Assembly (NCBI GenBank): GCA_001821765.1
Contig: MHOA01000010.1
Coordinates: 1 to 43,254, forward strand
Reading direction: 5' to 3'
Length of the DNA: 43,254 bases
Origin: Candidatus Ryanbacteria bacterium RIFCSPLOWO2_12_FULL_44_26
Lineage (GTDB): Bacteria; Patescibacteriota; Minisyncoccia; Ryanbacterales; HO2-45-13
Shown here: piece by piece, positions 4,334 through 29,850 of the stretch
Numbering within the stretch: position 1 is the stretch's first letter
How the letters are laid out: each line of letters starts with the position of its first letter
The notes under the pieces: generated by a model
Told to the model about the DNA's origin: nothing
The model's input: the letters and a program-made list of their open reading frames with translations, nothing else
The model's database searches: none
Translations under genes and position numbers: made by a program

Positions 4334-4401
4334 TCGTTGAAGCGCTTAAGACAGGCTGCCTCGACACGCTCAATACAAGTAATGGAATCGGACTTTTGTA
4401 C

Positions 4402-4430
4402 TTGCGTGAAATTAATCCATTGTATATACT
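4402..4430 (+). promoter_or_regulatory. Promoter of the toxin-antitoxin operon
   Basis: TTGCGT (4402-4407), 17-nt spacer, TATACT (4425-4430). The -10 box ends 8 nt before ATG 4439, so the mRNA is probably leaderless. The short TATATA-rich stretch over the start region could be the antitoxin operator. Confidence 0.65.
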
Positions 4431-4438
4431 GTGTATAT

Positions 4439-4711
4439 ATGAAGACCATGTTAAATATTAAAACCGATAGAAAGCTCAAAGAAGAGGCCCAGAAAACAGC
4501 CAAGGCTTTGGGTTTGCCGTTGAGCCTCGTTATCAATCAGTACCTGAAAGAATTTATTCACGAACGGAGAGTGGAGTTTTCCGAGCCTTTAGCGCCAAAT
4601 GTGAAGACACAAAAACTCTTGGAAAAGATTAAGAAAGATATTCAAAAAAGAAAGAACCTTTCTCCTGTATTTTCCTCCGCTGATGAAGCAATAAAGCACT
4701 TGAACTCCTAA
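4439..4711 (+). CDS. Antitoxin, RelB/DinJ-like
   Basis: A 90-aa product with a ribbon-helix-helix N-terminus: a short strand (MLNIKTDRKLKEEAQKTAK) and the ALGLPLSLVINQYLKEF helix typical of RelB/DinJ antitoxins. This half would bind the operator as a dimer; the C-terminal half, rich in charged residues, would wrap around the toxin. Its stop TAA overlaps the start ATG of the toxin gene by one base, the classic coupled layout. It is likely autoregulated. The ATG at 4439 is preferred over upstream codons because of the promoter position. Confidence 0.88.
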   Translation: MKTMLNIKTDRKLKEEAQKTAKALGLPLSLVINQYLKEFIHERRVEFSEPLAPNVKTQKLLEKIKKDIQKRKNLSPVFSSADEAIKHLNS

Positions 4712-4968
4712 TGCGAATCATCTTCCACGCAAGTTTTAAGAAGAAGTATAAGAAACTACCAAGTGCAATTCGGAAAAAATACGACGAGAAACTTCATGTT
4801 TTTATAAAAAATCCACTTGATCCCGTATTAAACAACCACGCTCTTCATGGAAAATGGAAAGAATATCGCAGTATTAATGTGACAGGCGATTTTCGTGCCG
4901 TATTTGAGATTCTTGAGAACATTGTTTATTTTGTAGATATCAATACGCACAGCAATTTATATAAGTAG
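4711..4968 (+). CDS. Toxin, RelE/YafQ family mRNA interferase
   Basis: An 85-aa basic protein of the RelE/ParE fold: an N-terminal FHASFKKKYKKLPSAIRKKYDEKL helix region, then the LHGKWKEYRSINVTGDFRAVFEI beta sheet carrying an Arg, and an ILENIVYFVDINTHSNLY end with His. YafQ-type toxins cleave mRNA on the ribosome. It is translationally coupled to the antitoxin. Just past its 3' end lies the decayed remainder of a GFA-family gene whose reading frame enters the toxin's last codons, suggesting that this cassette inserted into or recombined with that gene. Confidence 0.87.
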   Translation: MRIIFHASFKKKYKKLPSAIRKKYDEKLHVFIKNPLDPVLNNHALHGKWKEYRSINVTGDFRAVFEILENIVYFVDINTHSNLYK

Positions 4969-5650: not shown

Positions 5651-5687
5651 ACACAGAAAGACCTTTCCAGTAAAGGTCTTTCTGTGT
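5651..5687. repeat. Perfect 16-bp hairpin
   Basis: ACACAGAAAGACCTTT pairs perfectly with AAAGGTCTTTCTGTGT around a 5-nt loop. No T-tract follows on either side. It lies 17 bp upstream of the ECF-type promoter of the cellulase gene and may be an operator or insulator. The rest of 5554-5703 shows nothing else. Confidence 0.6.
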
Positions 5688-5703: not shown

Positions 5704-5747
5704 TGTAACTTTTTTATGACGATGTTACATCTTACAGTTAAGAGCAA
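5704..5747 (+). promoter_or_regulatory. ECF-type promoter of the GH6 gene
   Basis: TGTAAC (5704-5709), 17-nt spacer, then ACATCTTACAGTTAAGAGCA. The same arrangement, nearly base for base, precedes the ECF sigma gene on the minus strand (10870-10915). TGTAAC resembles known ECF -35 elements such as that of B. subtilis SigX. Confidence 0.7.
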
Positions 5748-5823
5748 TGCGTAACTTATACGCGTTGCCGGAGAAAAAGCCTTGGGTTTGCACATTAAAA
5801 GCTTTAAACGGGGACAAGACATT

Positions 5824-7053
5824 ATGAACAGGTTCTTTGTGAGATTAGCCATTATTCCTTTTTTGGGAATAATTACTGTATTTTTGGGGAATACGTCAGC
5901 CGCTGCAGAAATTCCCAAGGTGGATTGCAGTAAAATAAAAACCCTGTCGCCTTTTTACCATAACAACTCCATGCAGGCGGTGCGTGTTGAGCAGGAACTT
6001 CGCCAAAAAGGCGACATTGAAAGCGCGGATACGCTAGAGTATATATCATGCGTTCCTCAAGGAACGTGGTTTGTTGGCGGAGATAAAAGCGCCGTGAAAT
6101 CTCGGGCATCGGGAATTGTTCGGGATGCGGCGGCGGAGGGAAAAATTCCGGTGTTGGTGCTTTATAATGCTCCTGCCGGAAATCGCAACGCATGGTTAAG
6201 CGGTGTTGGAGACGCCGGTGCATATAAAGAATGGGTAAGGGCGATTGCAGAAGGAGTCGGTTCGAACGAGGCGTGGGTCATGCTTGAGCCGGATGCGATT
6301 GCGCTTGCCGGAAATCTTAGCGGTCAAGATCAGAATGAGAGATTTGGACAAATCAGCGATGCCATATCTATTCTTAAAACATATGCCCCCCATGTTCGCG
6401 TGTATATTGACGGGGGACATAGCTCATGGAAAAGTGAACAGGCGCAAGCTGATTTTCTCCTTCGCGCGGGAATTGAAAAGGCTGATGGGTTTTTTACCAA
6501 CGTGTCTCATTTTCGCAGCACTGCTGATGAAATTACCTATGGGAAATCGGTTTCCGGGCTTGTTGGAGGAAAACACTTTGTCATTGATACCAGCAGAAAC
6601 GGAAAGGGGTCGTTGAACTATGAATGGTGTAATCCGTCCGGAAGAGCAATTGGAGTGCGGCCGACGTTGAATACCGGCGATCCGTTTGTTGATGCATATT
6701 TATGGATCAAACTGCCCGGAGAATCTGACGGCACCTGCAATGGCGGCCCGTCTGCCGGTAAGTTTTGGCTTGAATATGCGCTCGGTCTTGTACATGAGGC
6801 GCTGACACTGTCGTTATTTGAGGAACCGCTCACCATGGGAACGGAAAGCTCTCAAGCCGCTCCAGAAACGGTTCAAGAGGACAACACGGCACCAACCCCG
6901 ATCACAGAATCAACCCCAATTCGAGAACAGTCCTTTGGTACAAATGAAAGCGAAACTCATTCGCTCTATAAAAATGAATCCTTCTTTAAGAGGAGAACAT
7001 CCTATATTTCCGTAACGGAGCAATTGAGGTCGAGGTTTAGGAGCGGCACTTAA
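5824..7053 (+). CDS. Secreted GH6 cellulase-like glycoside hydrolase
   Basis: A 409-aa exported protein with an N-terminal signal peptide (RLAIIPFLGIITVFLG, cleavage probably after SAAA). The GH6 fold is clear: VMLEPDAIAL (D157, matching the general acid D221 of Trichoderma Cel6A), VYIDGGHSSW, HFVIDTSRNGKG, WCNPSGRAIG and LPGESDGTCNGGPSAGKFW. GH6 enzymes cut beta-1,4-glucan with inversion. The usual DRDC segment is replaced by GNRNAW around residues 119-124, so the auxiliary Asp (D175 of Cel6A) seems absent. The last ~70 residues are Thr/Glu/Ser-rich and disordered. ATG 5824 directly precedes the signal peptide. It is likely controlled by the ECF sigma factor encoded at 10313-10867. Confidence 0.92.
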   Translation: MNRFFVRLAIIPFLGIITVFLGNTSAAAEIPKVDCSKIKTLSPFYHNNSMQAVRVEQELRQKGDIESADTLEYISCVPQGTWFVGGDKSAVKSRASGIVRDAAAEGKIPVLVLYNAPAGNRNAWLSGVGDAGAYKEWVRAIAEGVGSNEAWVMLEPDAIALAGNLSGQDQNERFGQISDAISILKTYAPHVRVYIDGGHSSWKSEQAQADFLLRAGIEKADGFFTNVSHFRSTADEITYGKSVSGLVGGKHFVIDTSRNGKGSLNYEWCNPSGRAIGVRPTLNTGDPFVDAYLWIKLPGESDGTCNGGPSAGKFWLEYALGLVHEALTLSLFEEPLTMGTESSQAAPETVQEDNTAPTPITESTPIREQSFGTNESETHSLYKNESFFKRRTSYISVTEQLRSRFRSGT

Positions 7054-7112
7054 GCCATTTACATTTTCTCTGCGCTCAATGGTTTTCGGGCCTTGTTATG
7101 CACCTTGCGCGC

Positions 7113-7142
7113 TTGACAAGCCGGGACGAAAAACTCTACCCT
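7113..7142 (+). promoter_or_regulatory. Promoter of 6S RNA 1
   Basis: TTGACA (7113-7118), 18-nt spacer, TACCCT (7137-7142), with the RNA starting near 7148. Confidence 0.75.
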
Positions 7143-7147
7143 AAAAG

Positions 7148-7316
7148 TAGGCAGCGTTCCGATAGGCATTCCGATTAATATTTCATACTACTGCGTCCGA
7201 ATCGCTTCGGCCTGCGGGCTGTAAGCTGAGGACCAAACAATGGAGTTTTGCGGACATACCTTAAGAGCGCTGCCTACCCGTTGAAACAAAAATCCCCCGA
7301 GGGGGATTTTTGTTTT
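7148..7316 (+). ncRNA. ssrS: 6S RNA (copy 1)
   Basis: A promoter-to-terminator unit without a coding frame. The ends form a 10-bp closing stem, GTAGGCAGCG (7147-7156) with CGCTGCCTAC (7268-7277). Inside is CCGATTAATATTTCATACTAC, close to the central-bubble strand of E. coli 6S RNA (CCGATATTTCATACCAC), and on the 3' side ATACCTTAAGAGC resembles its AAGCCTTAAAACTGC. 6S RNA mimics an open promoter and sequesters housekeeping RNA polymerase. CATACTACTGC (7184-7194) is repeated exactly in a second 6S-like RNA at 19812-19980. The terminator (7287-7316) completes the unit. Confidence 0.72.
7287..7316 (+). terminator. Terminator of 6S RNA 1
   Basis: Stem AAAAATCCCCC/GGGGGATTTTT with a 2-nt loop and following TGTTTTC. 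Confidence 0.85.
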
Positions 7317-7382
7317 CTTATTTATAAGGGGACGGATAGTCTGTATTTCGCACTTTGAGAAAAATTGTTATAATCTTTAGGC

Positions 7383-7979
7383 ATGAAAAAAGAAAATATC
7401 AATAACATTGTCGATTTTCTTTTTGAGGTCGGGATGCTCGCGAAGACCCCGAGAAGCGGGTTTTTCTTTTTGGGAAGCGGCGAGCAAAGTGTTGCCGAGC
7501 ATGTAAACAGAACAGCGTACATCGGTTTTGTGCTGGCTTCCATCGCGAACGATATTGATGCTTCAAAAGTGCTTAAAATGTGTATTTTTCATGACCTCGC
7601 CGAGGCGCGGGTATCTGATTTAAATTATGTGCACCAAAAGTACACCGAAAGAAAAGAACACCAAGCCATAGAAGATTTAGCCAAGGCGCTGCCGTTTGGC
7701 GATGCCATTCGCAGCATTATCGGTGAATATGAACAAAGAGAAAGCAAAGAGGCAAAACTTGCTAAAGACGCGGACACCTTGGAATTTCTTTTGTCGCTTA
7801 AGGAGCAGGTTGATATCGGGAATGAACGGGCGAAAACATGGACACCGCCTTTGCTTAAACGGCTGTTGACCGATGAAGCAAAGGAACTTGCTAAAGTGAT
7901 TGTGGAAACGGACTCCGACCGATGGTGGTATGGCAATAAAAATGATGATTGGTGGGTGAGCCGGGGAAAAGAACGCTAG
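7383..7979 (+). CDS. HD-domain hydrolase, YfbR/HDDC2 type
   Basis: A 198-aa metal-dependent phosphohydrolase of the HD superfamily. The metal ligands are visible as AEHVNR, IFHDLAEARVSDL and AKDADTLEFLL. The closest known group is the 5'-deoxynucleotidase YfbR and HDDC2, which dephosphorylate deoxynucleoside monophosphates and keep nucleotide pools balanced. TATAAT (7369-7374) ends 8 nt before ATG 7383 and there is no Shine-Dalgarno, so the mRNA is probably leaderless. A palindromic terminator overlaps the stop codon. Substrate is inference from family. Confidence 0.85.
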   Translation: MKKENINNIVDFLFEVGMLAKTPRSGFFFLGSGEQSVAEHVNRTAYIGFVLASIANDIDASKVLKMCIFHDLAEARVSDLNYVHQKYTERKEHQAIEDLAKALPFGDAIRSIIGEYEQRESKEAKLAKDADTLEFLLSLKEQVDIGNERAKTWTPPLLKRLLTDEAKELAKVIVETDSDRWWYGNKNDDWWVSRGKER

Positions 7980-7989
7980 CGTTCTTTTT
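7967..7989 (+). terminator. Terminator overlapping the HD gene stop
   Basis: Palindrome AAAAGAACGC/GCGTTCTTTT followed by T; the stop TAG lies at its centre. Confidence 0.75.
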
Positions 7990-8116
7990 GCGTGAAAGTT
8001 TTCTAGCGGCGGCAGCCCGTCCGATTTCTCGGCTGGAATATAGAAGTGATATACTACTATATAAATAATGTACTTTTCACATGAACTTCTGAACTTCAGA
8101 AAGGAGGCGATGGAGA

Positions 8117-8749
8117 GTGCGACTAAAGAGAACGCGAGAGATTCTTTTTAGAGAATTAAGTAATCGCGAGATCAGAATATTCCTTATTTTTATTGCGCGG
8201 GACTGCGGATTGCTATCTGTTCTTGAAAAATCCGTGCAGCAAAGAAAAGATCAGCGCGCTTTCCCTGCAATAAACGCGCATCGGCTTCTTTGCTGCATGT
8301 CCAGATTGTTGACCGGCATTCCCGTTCGTGAGGTCAGCGTTAAAGAGCGCAAGATGCTTGTTGCTTCCGTTGGATTCTTGAAAAGACGGTTAGAACGGTA
8401 TTATCGCGGACGCATTTGGTCAGGCGTGCAGGATATTCATATCCTTCACCCTGTCTATGGAAAGATGTACGCGACACCCCACGCGATTGATCGCTTTTTC
8501 GAATGCGTTTCCCTCGAACTCTTGGTTGCATTGGCGCGTGACAGGAACGTATCAAGAAATATCATAAGCTGTTTCTGTGAATCTTTGAAGCGTTCGCGGC
8601 AAAAGGCCTTTATGGAGGGACGCAGGGCCGAATGTTCCATCGGCAGCGCCCGTGATGCTGTAAAGCATCTTCACGACGTATGGCTTGATGTGTGGTTCGC
8701 CGTCACGGAAAAAGGAGAAACGGTTGTTGCCGTCGAGCGGCCGTACTAA
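8117..8749 (+). CDS. Unknown protein, mostly helical
   Basis: A 210-aa Arg-rich product that I do not recognise. It contains several predicted helices, a central YRGRIWSGVQDIHILHPVYGK segment followed by ATPHAIDRFFECVSLELLVALARD, and a Cys-rich CFCESLKRS stretch. There is no signal peptide or TM helix. GTG 8117 is chosen because AAAGGAGG lies 9 nt upstream; an ATG at 8109 opens only a 13-codon frame. A small inverted repeat TTCTGAA/TTCAGAA sits against the Shine-Dalgarno and could modulate translation. A terminator overlaps its end, so it is monocistronic. Confidence 0.7.
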   Translation: MRLKRTREILFRELSNREIRIFLIFIARDCGLLSVLEKSVQQRKDQRAFPAINAHRLLCCMSRLLTGIPVREVSVKERKMLVASVGFLKRRLERYYRGRIWSGVQDIHILHPVYGKMYATPHAIDRFFECVSLELLVALARDRNVSRNIISCFCESLKRSRQKAFMEGRRAECSIGSARDAVKHLHDVWLDVWFAVTEKGETVVAVERPY

Positions 8750-8768
8750 GTGATACGGCCGCTTTTTA
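8737..8768 (+). terminator. Terminator overlapping the 8117 gene end
   Basis: Stem GCGGCCGTA/TACGGCCGC around an 8-nt loop, then TTTTTAT. The stop codon lies in the loop. Confidence 0.9.
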
Positions 8769-8793
8769 TATGCCAGAAAAGCTCTCTTATAGT

Positions 8794-10329
8794 TTATTGT
8801 GTCGTAAATGACTGCTCGGTTGACGTTGCGGTATTCCCGGCAGCGTCTTTAGAGATAGCGATGTAGTAATATGTTGTGCTTGCAGTGAGGTTTGGGAAAT
8901 TGAGCAGATGGGAAGTAAGCAGGTTGATGTGTTCGTTGGCAAACAGCGTATTTGGCGCGGTGACGGGCGTTGACGTGCCCATAAGAACGTTTCCGGTTGC
9001 CTCTTCGTCGGTTAGCCAGCTAACGGCCGTTGAGCTCGCGGTGATATTGGATGCGGTGAGATTGCTTATGGCGGGAGCTGTGGTATCCGGCGTAGTTGTT
9101 GCGGTGCCGTTGTCATGATCACCGTCTTCATCCTCTTCGCAGCGGCCTATCGTGTCGCCGTGCCGAAGGTGTTTTGGCAGATCTCTTCGTTTGATTATTA
9201 TGGTTTCGCGCCCGTCTTCATCCTCGTGTTCGTCATTTTCACTTTCGTCTTCATCTCTGTCGTCATCATCCCCATCATTTATATGGCAGATAGTAATTTT
9301 GCCTCTCTCGTCTCTATCGTCTCTTCTGTCTTTTCCTTTGTTTTCGTTGTCGTTTGCAGCTTCGTCTTCGTCATCTTCATCTTCATTCTTGTTTTCTTTC
9401 TGTTTTTCCACGTCATTTTTGTGTTTGATTTTAAGGTCTAGCTTTATATCGCCATCCTTCATCTTTAACATTTCCAGATTTTTATTGTTCTTATATTTAA
9501 GATCTGTCTTTGCGTCGTCATCATCTTGATCTTCGTCTTGCCCTTGAAACTGAAACATTACTTCCAGTTTTTCGGCTGATGTCTCTACCTTGATTTTTAA
9601 CTTTTCATCGCTTGATGTGATTTTTACCGTTTTAAGGGTGAACAGATGTTTTTCAACAATAGAGCGCAACTCTTCTATAATTTCGTCTATAACGGCAGCT
9701 GCGAGCGCGTTGCCCCTGTTCAGTAAATCTGTTTTGTTGCGTTCTAAGTGTTCAAGCGCCGTTGTAAGCGCAAGCTCGGCGCGGTCAACATTTCCTTTTA
9801 TCTTCGGCGGTTTTTCGCCGTCGGTATGCGGCGTGGTAGTTGCGGTTGTGGTTGCGGTAGCATCCTCCAGCGGGGTTGATGTGGCAGTTGCGGTAAGATG
9901 ATCAAAATCATCACCTGCTGCGGTTTCGGTTAAAACAGCGGCCACAATAATTTTCGCCTCATCAAGCCGCTCTTTTGAAAACCGAATAATAAGCTCATCT
10001 TTTTTCTTATTCGATGCAAGCGCGAGCCGCACCCGTTCTGCCGCTATATCAATAGAGAAAAGCAAATCTCCGGGCTTTGCGTTATCGGCAAACGCAACGG
10101 TTGTTCCCGAAGAGATAAGAAATAATATAAGCGCAATCGCCGTTGCAGCAAATTTTATTCGCCGTTTCGCAAACAGCAACGGTTCAAATAAGAAATGATG
10201 CCAGCGTGCAGTTTGTTTTTCGTGGCGTGAAAGGCGTGTTTCAATATGCGACCAAAGCACCTGTTGCTCGACCGGTGATAGCGGTTTTGGTTTAGCCTTT
10301 TTTAGCAACTGTTCAATGTTTTGGCGCAT
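8794..10329 (-). CDS. DUF5667-type membrane protein with acidic region and FN3 domain
   Basis: A 511-aa membrane-anchored protein, probably the regulator of the adjacent ECF sigma factor. The N-terminus (~55 aa) is cytosolic and basic, a TM helix lies at about 58-80 (FAATAIALILFLISSG), and the following KPGDLLFSIDIAAERVRLAL is the DUF5667 signature. The middle is extremely acidic (long Asp/Glu runs, ~270-400) and holds a split CHIN...LPKHLRHGDTIGRC motif, normally seen as CHxPPG...LPAHLxHGD in secreted proteins. A fibronectin type III-like domain fills the last ~95 residues. Its start overlaps the sigma gene end by 17 nt, so the two are translationally coupled. Anti-sigma function is inference. 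Confidence 0.82.
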   Translation of the reverse strand: MRQNIEQLLKKAKPKPLSPVEQQVLWSHIETRLSRHEKQTARWHHFLFEPLLFAKRRIKFAATAIALILFLISSGTTVAFADNAKPGDLLFSIDIAAERVRLALASNKKKDELIIRFSKERLDEAKIIVAAVLTETAAGDDFDHLTATATSTPLEDATATTTATTTPHTDGEKPPKIKGNVDRAELALTTALEHLERNKTDLLNRGNALAAAVIDEIIEELRSIVEKHLFTLKTVKITSSDEKLKIKVETSAEKLEVMFQFQGQDEDQDDDDAKTDLKYKNNKNLEMLKMKDGDIKLDLKIKHKNDVEKQKENKNEDEDDEDEAANDNENKGKDRRDDRDERGKITICHINDGDDDDRDEDESENDEHEDEDGRETIIIKRRDLPKHLRHGDTIGRCEEDEDGDHDNGTATTTPDTTAPAISNLTASNITASSTAVSWLTDEEATGNVLMGTSTPVTAPNTLFANEHINLLTSHLLNFPNLTASTTYYYIAISKDAAGNTATSTEQSFTTQ

Positions 10330-10867
10330 ATCGTTCGTTATCCTCGTTGGCTATCTGTTGTAATTTCGAAAGCGCGCGGTGGTGGCGTACCTTCGCAGTA
10401 TTCTCACTTATTCCCATAACAGCGGCGATACCAGCGAACGAGAGGTCACTCCAGTAGCGCAGACGCAGCAACTCTCGATCCTGCTCCCCGAGATGTCCAA
10501 GCAGCCCCTCAATATATTGATAATCGGGATATAAGATGTCATAGGAATCTTTTATATGCTGTTCGTTGAACTCTACAACATCCGCTCTTTTTTTAAAATG
10601 TCGTGACAGTTTTCGTTTGAGGATTATATATACAAATCCGAGGAACTCCTCATCGCTTGAATACTCAAAACCGTCAAATGAGATCCATAAATCTATAAAA
10701 GTTTCTTGGAGGATGTCCAGCGCATCTTCGCGCTGTCGGGTGCGTGAGAGCGCGTACGCGAACAACCTGTCTTGTAACAGCGTTACAATTTCGTGAAAAG
10801 CCTCCGTTTCCCCATGTAGAGCCTTTTTGATCAATGGCTGCAGGTTATGCTGCGTACGCGTACTCAC
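10313..10867 (-). CDS. ECF-type RNA polymerase sigma factor
   Basis: A 184-aa sigma-70 factor of the ECF class. Region 2 is seen around residues 25-90 (LFAYALSRTRQREDALDILQETFIDLW) and region 4 around 120-170 (LGEQDRELLRLRYWSDLSFAGIAAVMGISENTAKVRHHRALSKL). It would direct RNA polymerase to a special set of promoters. GTG 10867 lies just downstream of a TGTAAC-N17-ACAT element that also precedes the GH6 gene, pointing to autoregulation and control of the cellulase. It is co-transcribed with the DUF5667 gene. Confidence 0.92.
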   Translation of the reverse strand: MSTRTQHNLQPLIKKALHGETEAFHEIVTLLQDRLFAYALSRTRQREDALDILQETFIDLWISFDGFEYSSDEEFLGFVYIILKRKLSRHFKKRADVVEFNEQHIKDSYDILYPDYQYIEGLLGHLGEQDRELLRLRYWSDLSFAGIAAVMGISENTAKVRHHRALSKLQQIANEDNERYAPKH

Positions 10868-10869
10868 TG

Positions 10870-10915
10870 TAATGCTCTTTACCGTAAAATGTCATCTTAC
10901 CGTAAAAAGGTTACA
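10870..10915 (-). promoter_or_regulatory. ECF-type autoregulatory promoter
   Basis: Read on the minus strand: TGTAAC (10915-10910), 17-nt spacer, then ACATTTTACGGTAAAGAGCA. It matches the GH6 promoter in the -35, in the TTTTTA after it, and in most of the -10 block. TTTTACGGTAA also occurs twice here, 18 bp apart, which may be a further operator. Confidence 0.7.
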
Positions 10916-29166: not shown

Positions 29167-29181
29167 GTGATGTATTGTTTT

Positions 29182-29850
29182 ATGGAAATAGCAACGTTTA
29201 TATTTCTCATCGCAATTCTCATCATGTCTGTTGTGGTGCATGAAGTTTCTCATGGTTTCATTGCGCTTGCGCTCGGAGATTTTACTGCAAAGTATGCGGG
29301 GAGATTAACGCTTAATCCGTTAAAACATCTTGATCCGGTTGGTTCGTTTCTCTTCCCGGCATTGTTGGTGATGCTCGGGGTGCCGCCTTTTGGCTGGGCT
29401 CGTCCCGTTCCTTACAACCCTTATAATTTAAGGGATCAAAAATGGGGTCCGGCATTGGTTGCTGTAGCCGGTCCGCTGTCAAACATCCTCGTCGCTTTTG
29501 TTTTCGGTATGATGTTTAGGTTTGCGGCAATCAGCGAGGTTGCAGCGTCTACAGCATTTCTGACCTTATTGGTTGTTGTTATTTATATTAATATTTTACT
29601 GGCGGTGTTTAATCTCATACCGATTCCCCCACTTGATGGATCAAAGATTCTTTTTGCAGTATTACCCCATCGTTATCTTGCAATTCAAAGATTATTGGAG
29701 GCCTATGGATTTTTTATACTTTTAATTCTTATATTTATTGGCCGGGGCATTTTAGGACTCGTTATTCTCCCTCCAACATTTCTTCTCGCACAGTTACTAA
29801 CCGGATTGTCTCCCCAGGAGTTGCTGGGCGCCTTGGCGGCGTTTTTCTAA
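29182..29850 (+). CDS. Site-2 protease family (M50) membrane metalloprotease
   Basis: A 222-aa intramembrane zinc protease. TM1 carries HEVSH (zinc ligands and Glu), and a later helix carries NLIPIPPLDG, giving the third zinc ligand Asp. Short M50B members like this one cleave membrane-bound regulators or signal-peptide remnants; its target is unknown, though the anti-sigma-like DUF5667 protein is one conceivable candidate. ATG 29182 is chosen as the promoter's start lies at ~29173; upstream GTG/ATG codons overlap the -10 end. Confidence 0.9.
   Translation: MEIATFIFLIAILIMSVVVHEVSHGFIALALGDFTAKYAGRLTLNPLKHLDPVGSFLFPALLVMLGVPPFGWARPVPYNPYNLRDQKWGPALVAVAGPLSNILVAFVFGMMFRFAAISEVAASTAFLTLLVVVIYINILLAVFNLIPIPPLDGSKILFAVLPHRYLAIQRLLEAYGFFILLILIFIGRGILGLVILPPTFLLAQLLTGLSPQELLGALAAFF

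Follow-up and report, generated by a model that had tools for sequence, protein, structure and literature searches.

The two similar sequence blocks that stand before an ECF sigma operon and, 5 kb away, before the gene for a secreted GH6-family protein are probably promoters of one ECF sigma factor, namely the one encoded in that operon. On the best reading of the evidence, they represent the promoter by which an ECF subgroup regulates itself, GH6 being a second target specific to this lineage. The relevant features of the window, by which we mean the whole analysed stretch of 43,254 nucleotides, are as follows:

5651 to 5687, no strand assigned: perfect 16-bp inverted repeat just 5' of the GH6 promoter, where it may terminate the preceding gene
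5704 to 5747, plus strand: predicted GH6 promoter block, with -35 TGTAAC at 5704-5709, -10 CAT at 5728-5730 and purine patch AAGAGCA at 5740-5746
5824 to 7053, plus strand: gene for the secreted GH6-family protein, 409 aa (Pfam PF01341, E 1e-49; signal peptide by eye)
7283 to 7316, plus strand: terminator-like hairpin 3' of GH6
8794 to 10329, minus strand: gene for a putative membrane anti-sigma factor, overlapping the sigma gene by 17 nt
10313 to 10867, minus strand: gene for the ECF sigma factor, 184 aa, with regions 2 and 4 (Pfam Sigma70_r2 and Sigma70_r4_2, above cut-off)
10870 to 10915, minus strand: predicted sigma-operon promoter block, with -35 TGTAAC at 10915-10910, -10 CAT at 10891-10889 and purine patch AAAGAGC at 10880-10874

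The sequence-only reading from which this analysis started had claimed both blocks, and they are present as it described them: in each, TGTAAC is followed by one variable base and TTTTTA, the distance from TGTAAC to ACAT is exactly 17 bases, and TTAC-GT-AAGAGCA recurs further on with single changes. Ungapped, the blocks are identical at 33 of 46 positions, compared with 9 of 40 in the 40 bases just upstream, and an ungapped local comparison of the two 200-bp upstream regions peaks at a score of 21, against a maximum of 17 among 500 random pairs (250 for each of two compositions). The GH6 site is correctly oriented, its CAT ending 93 bases before the ATG at 5824 (an alternative earlier start, TTG at 5782, is possible), while at the sigma site 21 bases separate the end of CAT from the GTG of the sigma gene. 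On the plus strand between 5400 and 5824, no sigma-70-like match of at least 9 of 12 bases was found. A weak match of this kind (9/12) overlaps the sigma promoter at 10895-10866, which counts against the best explanation; sigma-70-like matches in the region number 13, versus 7.0 in shuffles. The sigma promoter also contains a perfect 11-bp direct repeat, TTACCGTAAAA, with copies 18 bp apart (window 10879-10907), the second of which overlaps the likely start region.

The sigma-operon promoter recurs in relatives, defined here as ECF orthologues with the same pair of ECF-sigma and DUF5667-type genes (n=12, two classes). In the class sample of 383 genomes, 13 matched at E 1e-14, the window's own genome included, and five were used; the phylum sample of 379 genomes yielded two matches at E 1e-20 (own included), of which one was used; and a third sample, 380 genomes from the class of that phylum-sample relative, yielded eight at E 1e-22 (counting the query genome), of which six were used. 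Listed genomes of the class and phylum samples measure about 0.5-1.2 Mb, in keeping with the CPR affiliation assumed by the sequence-only reading. The ECF matches L097, L098, L104-L109 and L171 were left out because their sigma similarity or next gene did not fit; L171, from the third sample, has a different partner and no motif. The next genes of L097, L098 and L105-L109 were inspected once the motif was already known, and L172 was retained among the 12 despite its absent CAT. In all 12 relatives the sigma gene is preceded by [T/A]GTAAC (TGTAAC in 11, AGTAAC in one), and thus by the ECF hallmark AAC, as in the window. In 10 of them CAT follows exactly 18 bases later, whereas L166 has TAT and L172 neither. 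Several also show a TAGAGG-like patch about 8 bases past CAT, the same place at which AAGAGCA had been noted in the window. The conservation upstream of orthologous ECF/DUF5667 operons that had been proposed as a check is therefore found, suggesting that the sigma factor activates itself and, in this lineage, GH6.

The motif appears to be characteristic of this group of sigma factors. Of 80 further ECF loci taken from public genomes, only two have TGTAAC-N17-19-YAT within 400 nt upstream, and none of the nine excluded loci has TGTAAC-N18-CAT in promoter orientation. The next gene of L106 and L109 is DUF5667-like by eye, and no [T/A]GTAAC occurs in the stretch searched; the motif therefore tracks the sigma subgroup, not the partner. 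At L107, L108 and L016, which belong to other ECF subgroups, the last being the second ECF gene of the window's own genome (G000), TGTAAC is followed by CGTT at 16-17 bases (by eye). Judging from these pairings, TGTAAC may be the general ECF -35 of the phylum and CAT the mark of one ECF subgroup. The same pairings bear on a different interpretation of the block, in which a separate DNA-binding regulator would use it as an operator with the inverted repeat TGTAAC-N14-GTTACA. Perfect 6-base half-sites are indeed present in GH6, L099 and L100, and the sigma site of the window is partly symmetric. In the remaining sites that were compared, however, the left half matches at 5-6 of 6 positions and the right half at only 2-4, the conserved part on the right being CAT, whose T falls outside the dyad. 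Since the right half is not conserved, and with CGTT in its place at the three other ECF genes, we consider an operator distinctly unlikely.

Upstream of L016 (G000:C1, ECF gene at 227479-227979, minus strand), the sequence reads TGTAACCTTT-N13-CGTTAT together with a TAAGAGG patch; the CGTTAT, a classical -10, lies 17 bases past TGTAAC. Given the shared -35, it is conceivable that this second ECF factor drives GH6. Its site, however, agrees with the GH6 block at only 16 of 46 positions ungapped, or 24 with a 2-base gap, compared with 33 for the first ECF site, and the L016 site has, two bases further along, CGTTAT in place of the CAT of GH6, rendering this assignment very improbable.

By its domain structure, the sigma factor of the preferred reading is an ECF (group IV) protein, consisting of regions 2 (residues 28-95) and 4 (117-170) only, with a short linker. 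The first descriptions of ECFs relied on AAC and CGT in their promoters and on self-regulation, whereas a more recent definition uses sigma regions 2 and 4, so that CGT in the -10 is an early hallmark and no longer a defining one (PMC8103513, available part). We nevertheless count it against the best explanation that CAT replaces CGT in the window and in 10 of the 12 relatives. In the partner, a conserved N-terminal segment is followed by one TM segment (by eye), DUF5667, an acidic stretch and an FN3-like end. Membrane anti-sigma factors have this layout of short N-terminus, TM and outside domain, and the same role is putative for the partner. An alignment of 7 of the 13 partners, with the six from the 380-genome sample left out, has 16 invariant positions; in these seven, Pfam (to E 0.01) reports DUF5667 in six, Pur_ac_phosph_N in four, fn3 in two and a recognised anti-sigma domain in none. 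For the window's DUF5667-type protein, both Pfam matches fall just below the curated cut-offs. Unlinked to the sigma operon, the window also holds a gene for an M50 peptidase (site-2-protease family; 29167-29850, plus strand), a candidate that could serve in sigma release via membrane proteolysis. A RelB/DUF6364-like and YafQ/ParE-like pair at 4337-4968 (plus strand) is a probable toxin-antitoxin module.

To assess the GH6 site, we scored it with a weight matrix built from the 12 relatives only, with nothing from the window; this is the more independent test, the pattern of the sequence-only reading having come from these same two sites. That the length of 44 positions was picked after the purine-rich patch past CAT had been noticed in relatives counts against the best explanation. 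Within the window, the sigma site ranked first (28.7) and the GH6 site second (19.5), followed by the next place at 12.9. In a leave-one-out analysis, the 13 sigma sites scored between -3.8 and 32.4, with GH6 exceeding 6 of 13; that it lies below most sigma sites counts against the best explanation. In random sequence, this relatives-only model yields about 0.25 chance sites per genome at the GH6 score, a figure that falls to 0.012 once the window's sigma site is included. A 30-position model from 5 relatives and a 27-position core from 12, with 2.7 and 2.9 chance sites per genome, were unable to judge GH6 and were discarded. The sigma promoter could be real and the GH6 site a chance or decayed match, as the figure of 0.25 and the absence of the site from every GH6 relative elsewhere (8 loci) would permit. 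Its correct orientation, its distance of 93 bases from the start codon and its 33/46 identity with the local sigma site argue otherwise, and we deem a chance match unlikely. Orientation, start-codon distance and closeness to the sigma operon add support for GH6 as a target, albeit unquantified. That the family sample consists of this genome alone counts against the best explanation. Taken as a prediction from sequence, an ECF-type promoter like that of the sigma operon probably also drives GH6.

Genome-wide counts delimit the regulon. In the 890,527 bp (14 contigs) of G000, the pattern of the sequence-only reading has 14 matches with up to three mismatches, versus 19 for the reversed control, and only two of the 14 are exact; that the genome holds no third exact match counts against the best explanation. 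With up to one mismatch, TGTAACNTTTN14CAT gave 6 matches (control 5) and the same two exact sites, where a simulation predicts about 0.27. TGTAAC-N18-CAT alone gave 6 matches, as did its control. Of the four matches besides the two promoter sites, L148 is situated some 80 nt upstream of a gene resembling that for ribosomal protein L24, L150 and L159 are antisense inside open frames, and at L154 no open frame of 80 aa is placed as a target. With no third exact site in G000, the predicted regulon therefore comprises two promoters.

The GH6 protein contains the family's catalytic domain, with solved relatives matching at E down to 4.9e-61. The conserved GH6 active-site aspartates, which we take to include the Asp of the RDC loop, are only partly present, EPD, YID and ESD being retained while the RDC-loop Asp is Asn. 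The catalytic domain can be aligned with those of M. tuberculosis Cel6 and T. fusca E2, retaining EPDA, YIDGGHS and PGESDG, but the window protein has GNR where RDC stands, and therefore lacks both the aspartate and the cysteine of this loop. Its predicted activity is plausible, not assured; a binding module is not reported by Pfam. With the G344 protein left out of the count, the RDC-loop motif is also absent from the second G000 copy and from G006, G007 and G156, and present in G107, G382 and G352. The second GH6 gene of this 0.89-Mb genome (L145, G000:C7:68523-69401) encodes a protein 50% identical to the first and is not preceded by the promoter; neither G000 copy has the RDC-loop aspartate. 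GH6 relatives occur in 8 of the 383 class-sample genomes. Within about 1.5 kb on each side of the 8 other GH6 loci, including the second G000 copy, TGTAAC-N17-19-YAT was never found in promoter position, which counts against the best explanation; an occurrence at L142, with spacing 19, is directed away from its GH6 gene. A dedicated cellulase circuit as a general feature was therefore rejected, the promoter in relatives lying mainly before the sigma gene. What stands of the small regulon originally proposed is the ECF-type promoter before the sigma operon, shared by 12 relatives, and probably that before GH6, but not a dedicated or conserved ECF/cellulase circuit.

Across the 13 genomes, TGTAACYTTTN14YAT without mismatch has 20 matches, versus 4 for the reversed control. 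Nine of these are promoters of the sigma genes themselves, the source of the pattern. Among the other 11, GH6, L151 and L175 precede genes whose products have an apparent signal peptide. L151 is a second high-scoring site in G597 (27.0), before the gene for a secreted 158-aa protein; this protein has a relative in one other of nine genomes searched (G335), where no TGTAAC precedes the homologue. L175 in G730 is a weak further target (12.2) before a secreted-protein gene. L182 (G811:C52:3928-3954), which reads TGTAACTTTTT-N13-TAT and scores a weak 15.8, is found about 180 nt upstream of a second gene for an ECF sigma factor, making cross-regulation among sigma factors possible. The remaining 7 of the 11 fall within open frames, on either strand, or are not followed by a gene. 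One of these seven, L118 (G102:C2:137698-137724), with a score of 23.5 and no gene behind it, counts against the best explanation; on the opposite strand, it overlaps the beginning of a gene whose product is a secreted glycine-rich protein. Further secreted genes behind the motif, sought as a check, are found in other genomes, with L151 as the best case.

In the mechanism that we propose, the sigma holoenzyme would recognise the -35 TGTAAC[C/T]TTT and, at a fixed distance, a subgroup-specific -10, about G-R-CAT, with transcription starting some 7-10 bases past the -10, at the purine-rich patch. One promoter would serve the sigma gene together with the DUF5667-type membrane-protein gene that overlaps it, providing positive feedback along with its own brake, and the other, 5 kb off, would serve the secreted GH6 protein. 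The conserved N-terminal segment of the membrane protein may hold the sigma factor until an extracytoplasmic event releases it; we infer this signal, the enzyme activity of GH6 and the function of the DUF5667 protein as an anti-sigma factor. GH6 may have been recruited to the regulon in this lineage only, perhaps by acquiring a duplicate of the sigma promoter, since the match extends past the -10 into the leader.

The system resembles the general ECF design, as given in the available part of PMC8103513, in regions 2 and 4 only, in the -35 AAC, in the own-operon promoter and in the overlapping one-TM gene, but differs from it in the -10, which is CAT rather than CGT, in its DUF5667 partner and in its predicted regulon of two promoters. 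According to the available part of PMC4711584, the SigI factors of Clostridium thermocellum control glycoside hydrolase genes as well as the operons that encode them, from promoters of the form AAA-N13/14-CGWA, and RsgI1-6 carry carbohydrate-binding modules. If our reading is right, the two systems would be alike in coupling an own operon to a secreted glycoside hydrolase and possibly in a sensing outer part of the anti-sigma factor. They are not of the same family, however, as TGTAAC-N18-CAT does not conform to the SigI consensus; in the 7 partners, Pfam (to E 0.01) found neither an RsgI N-terminal domain nor a carbohydrate-binding module. In the open-access literature, with subscription papers outside this scope, no paper defining an alternative-sigma promoter in Patescibacteria is apparent by title and abstract start, and none mentioning DUF5667 was found.

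More tentatively, CPR-type bacteria might share an ECF/DUF5667 envelope-sensing module, its promoter conserved across at least two classes, to which each lineage would add its own secreted effector, a GH6 glucanase in this case and a different secreted protein in another, through capture of the sigma promoter in duplicate; such a module would be a one-effector switch and not a broad stress regulon. In these mostly uncultivable bacteria, an exactly spaced, conserved promoter from 13 operons provides a handle for finding regulated secreted proteins.
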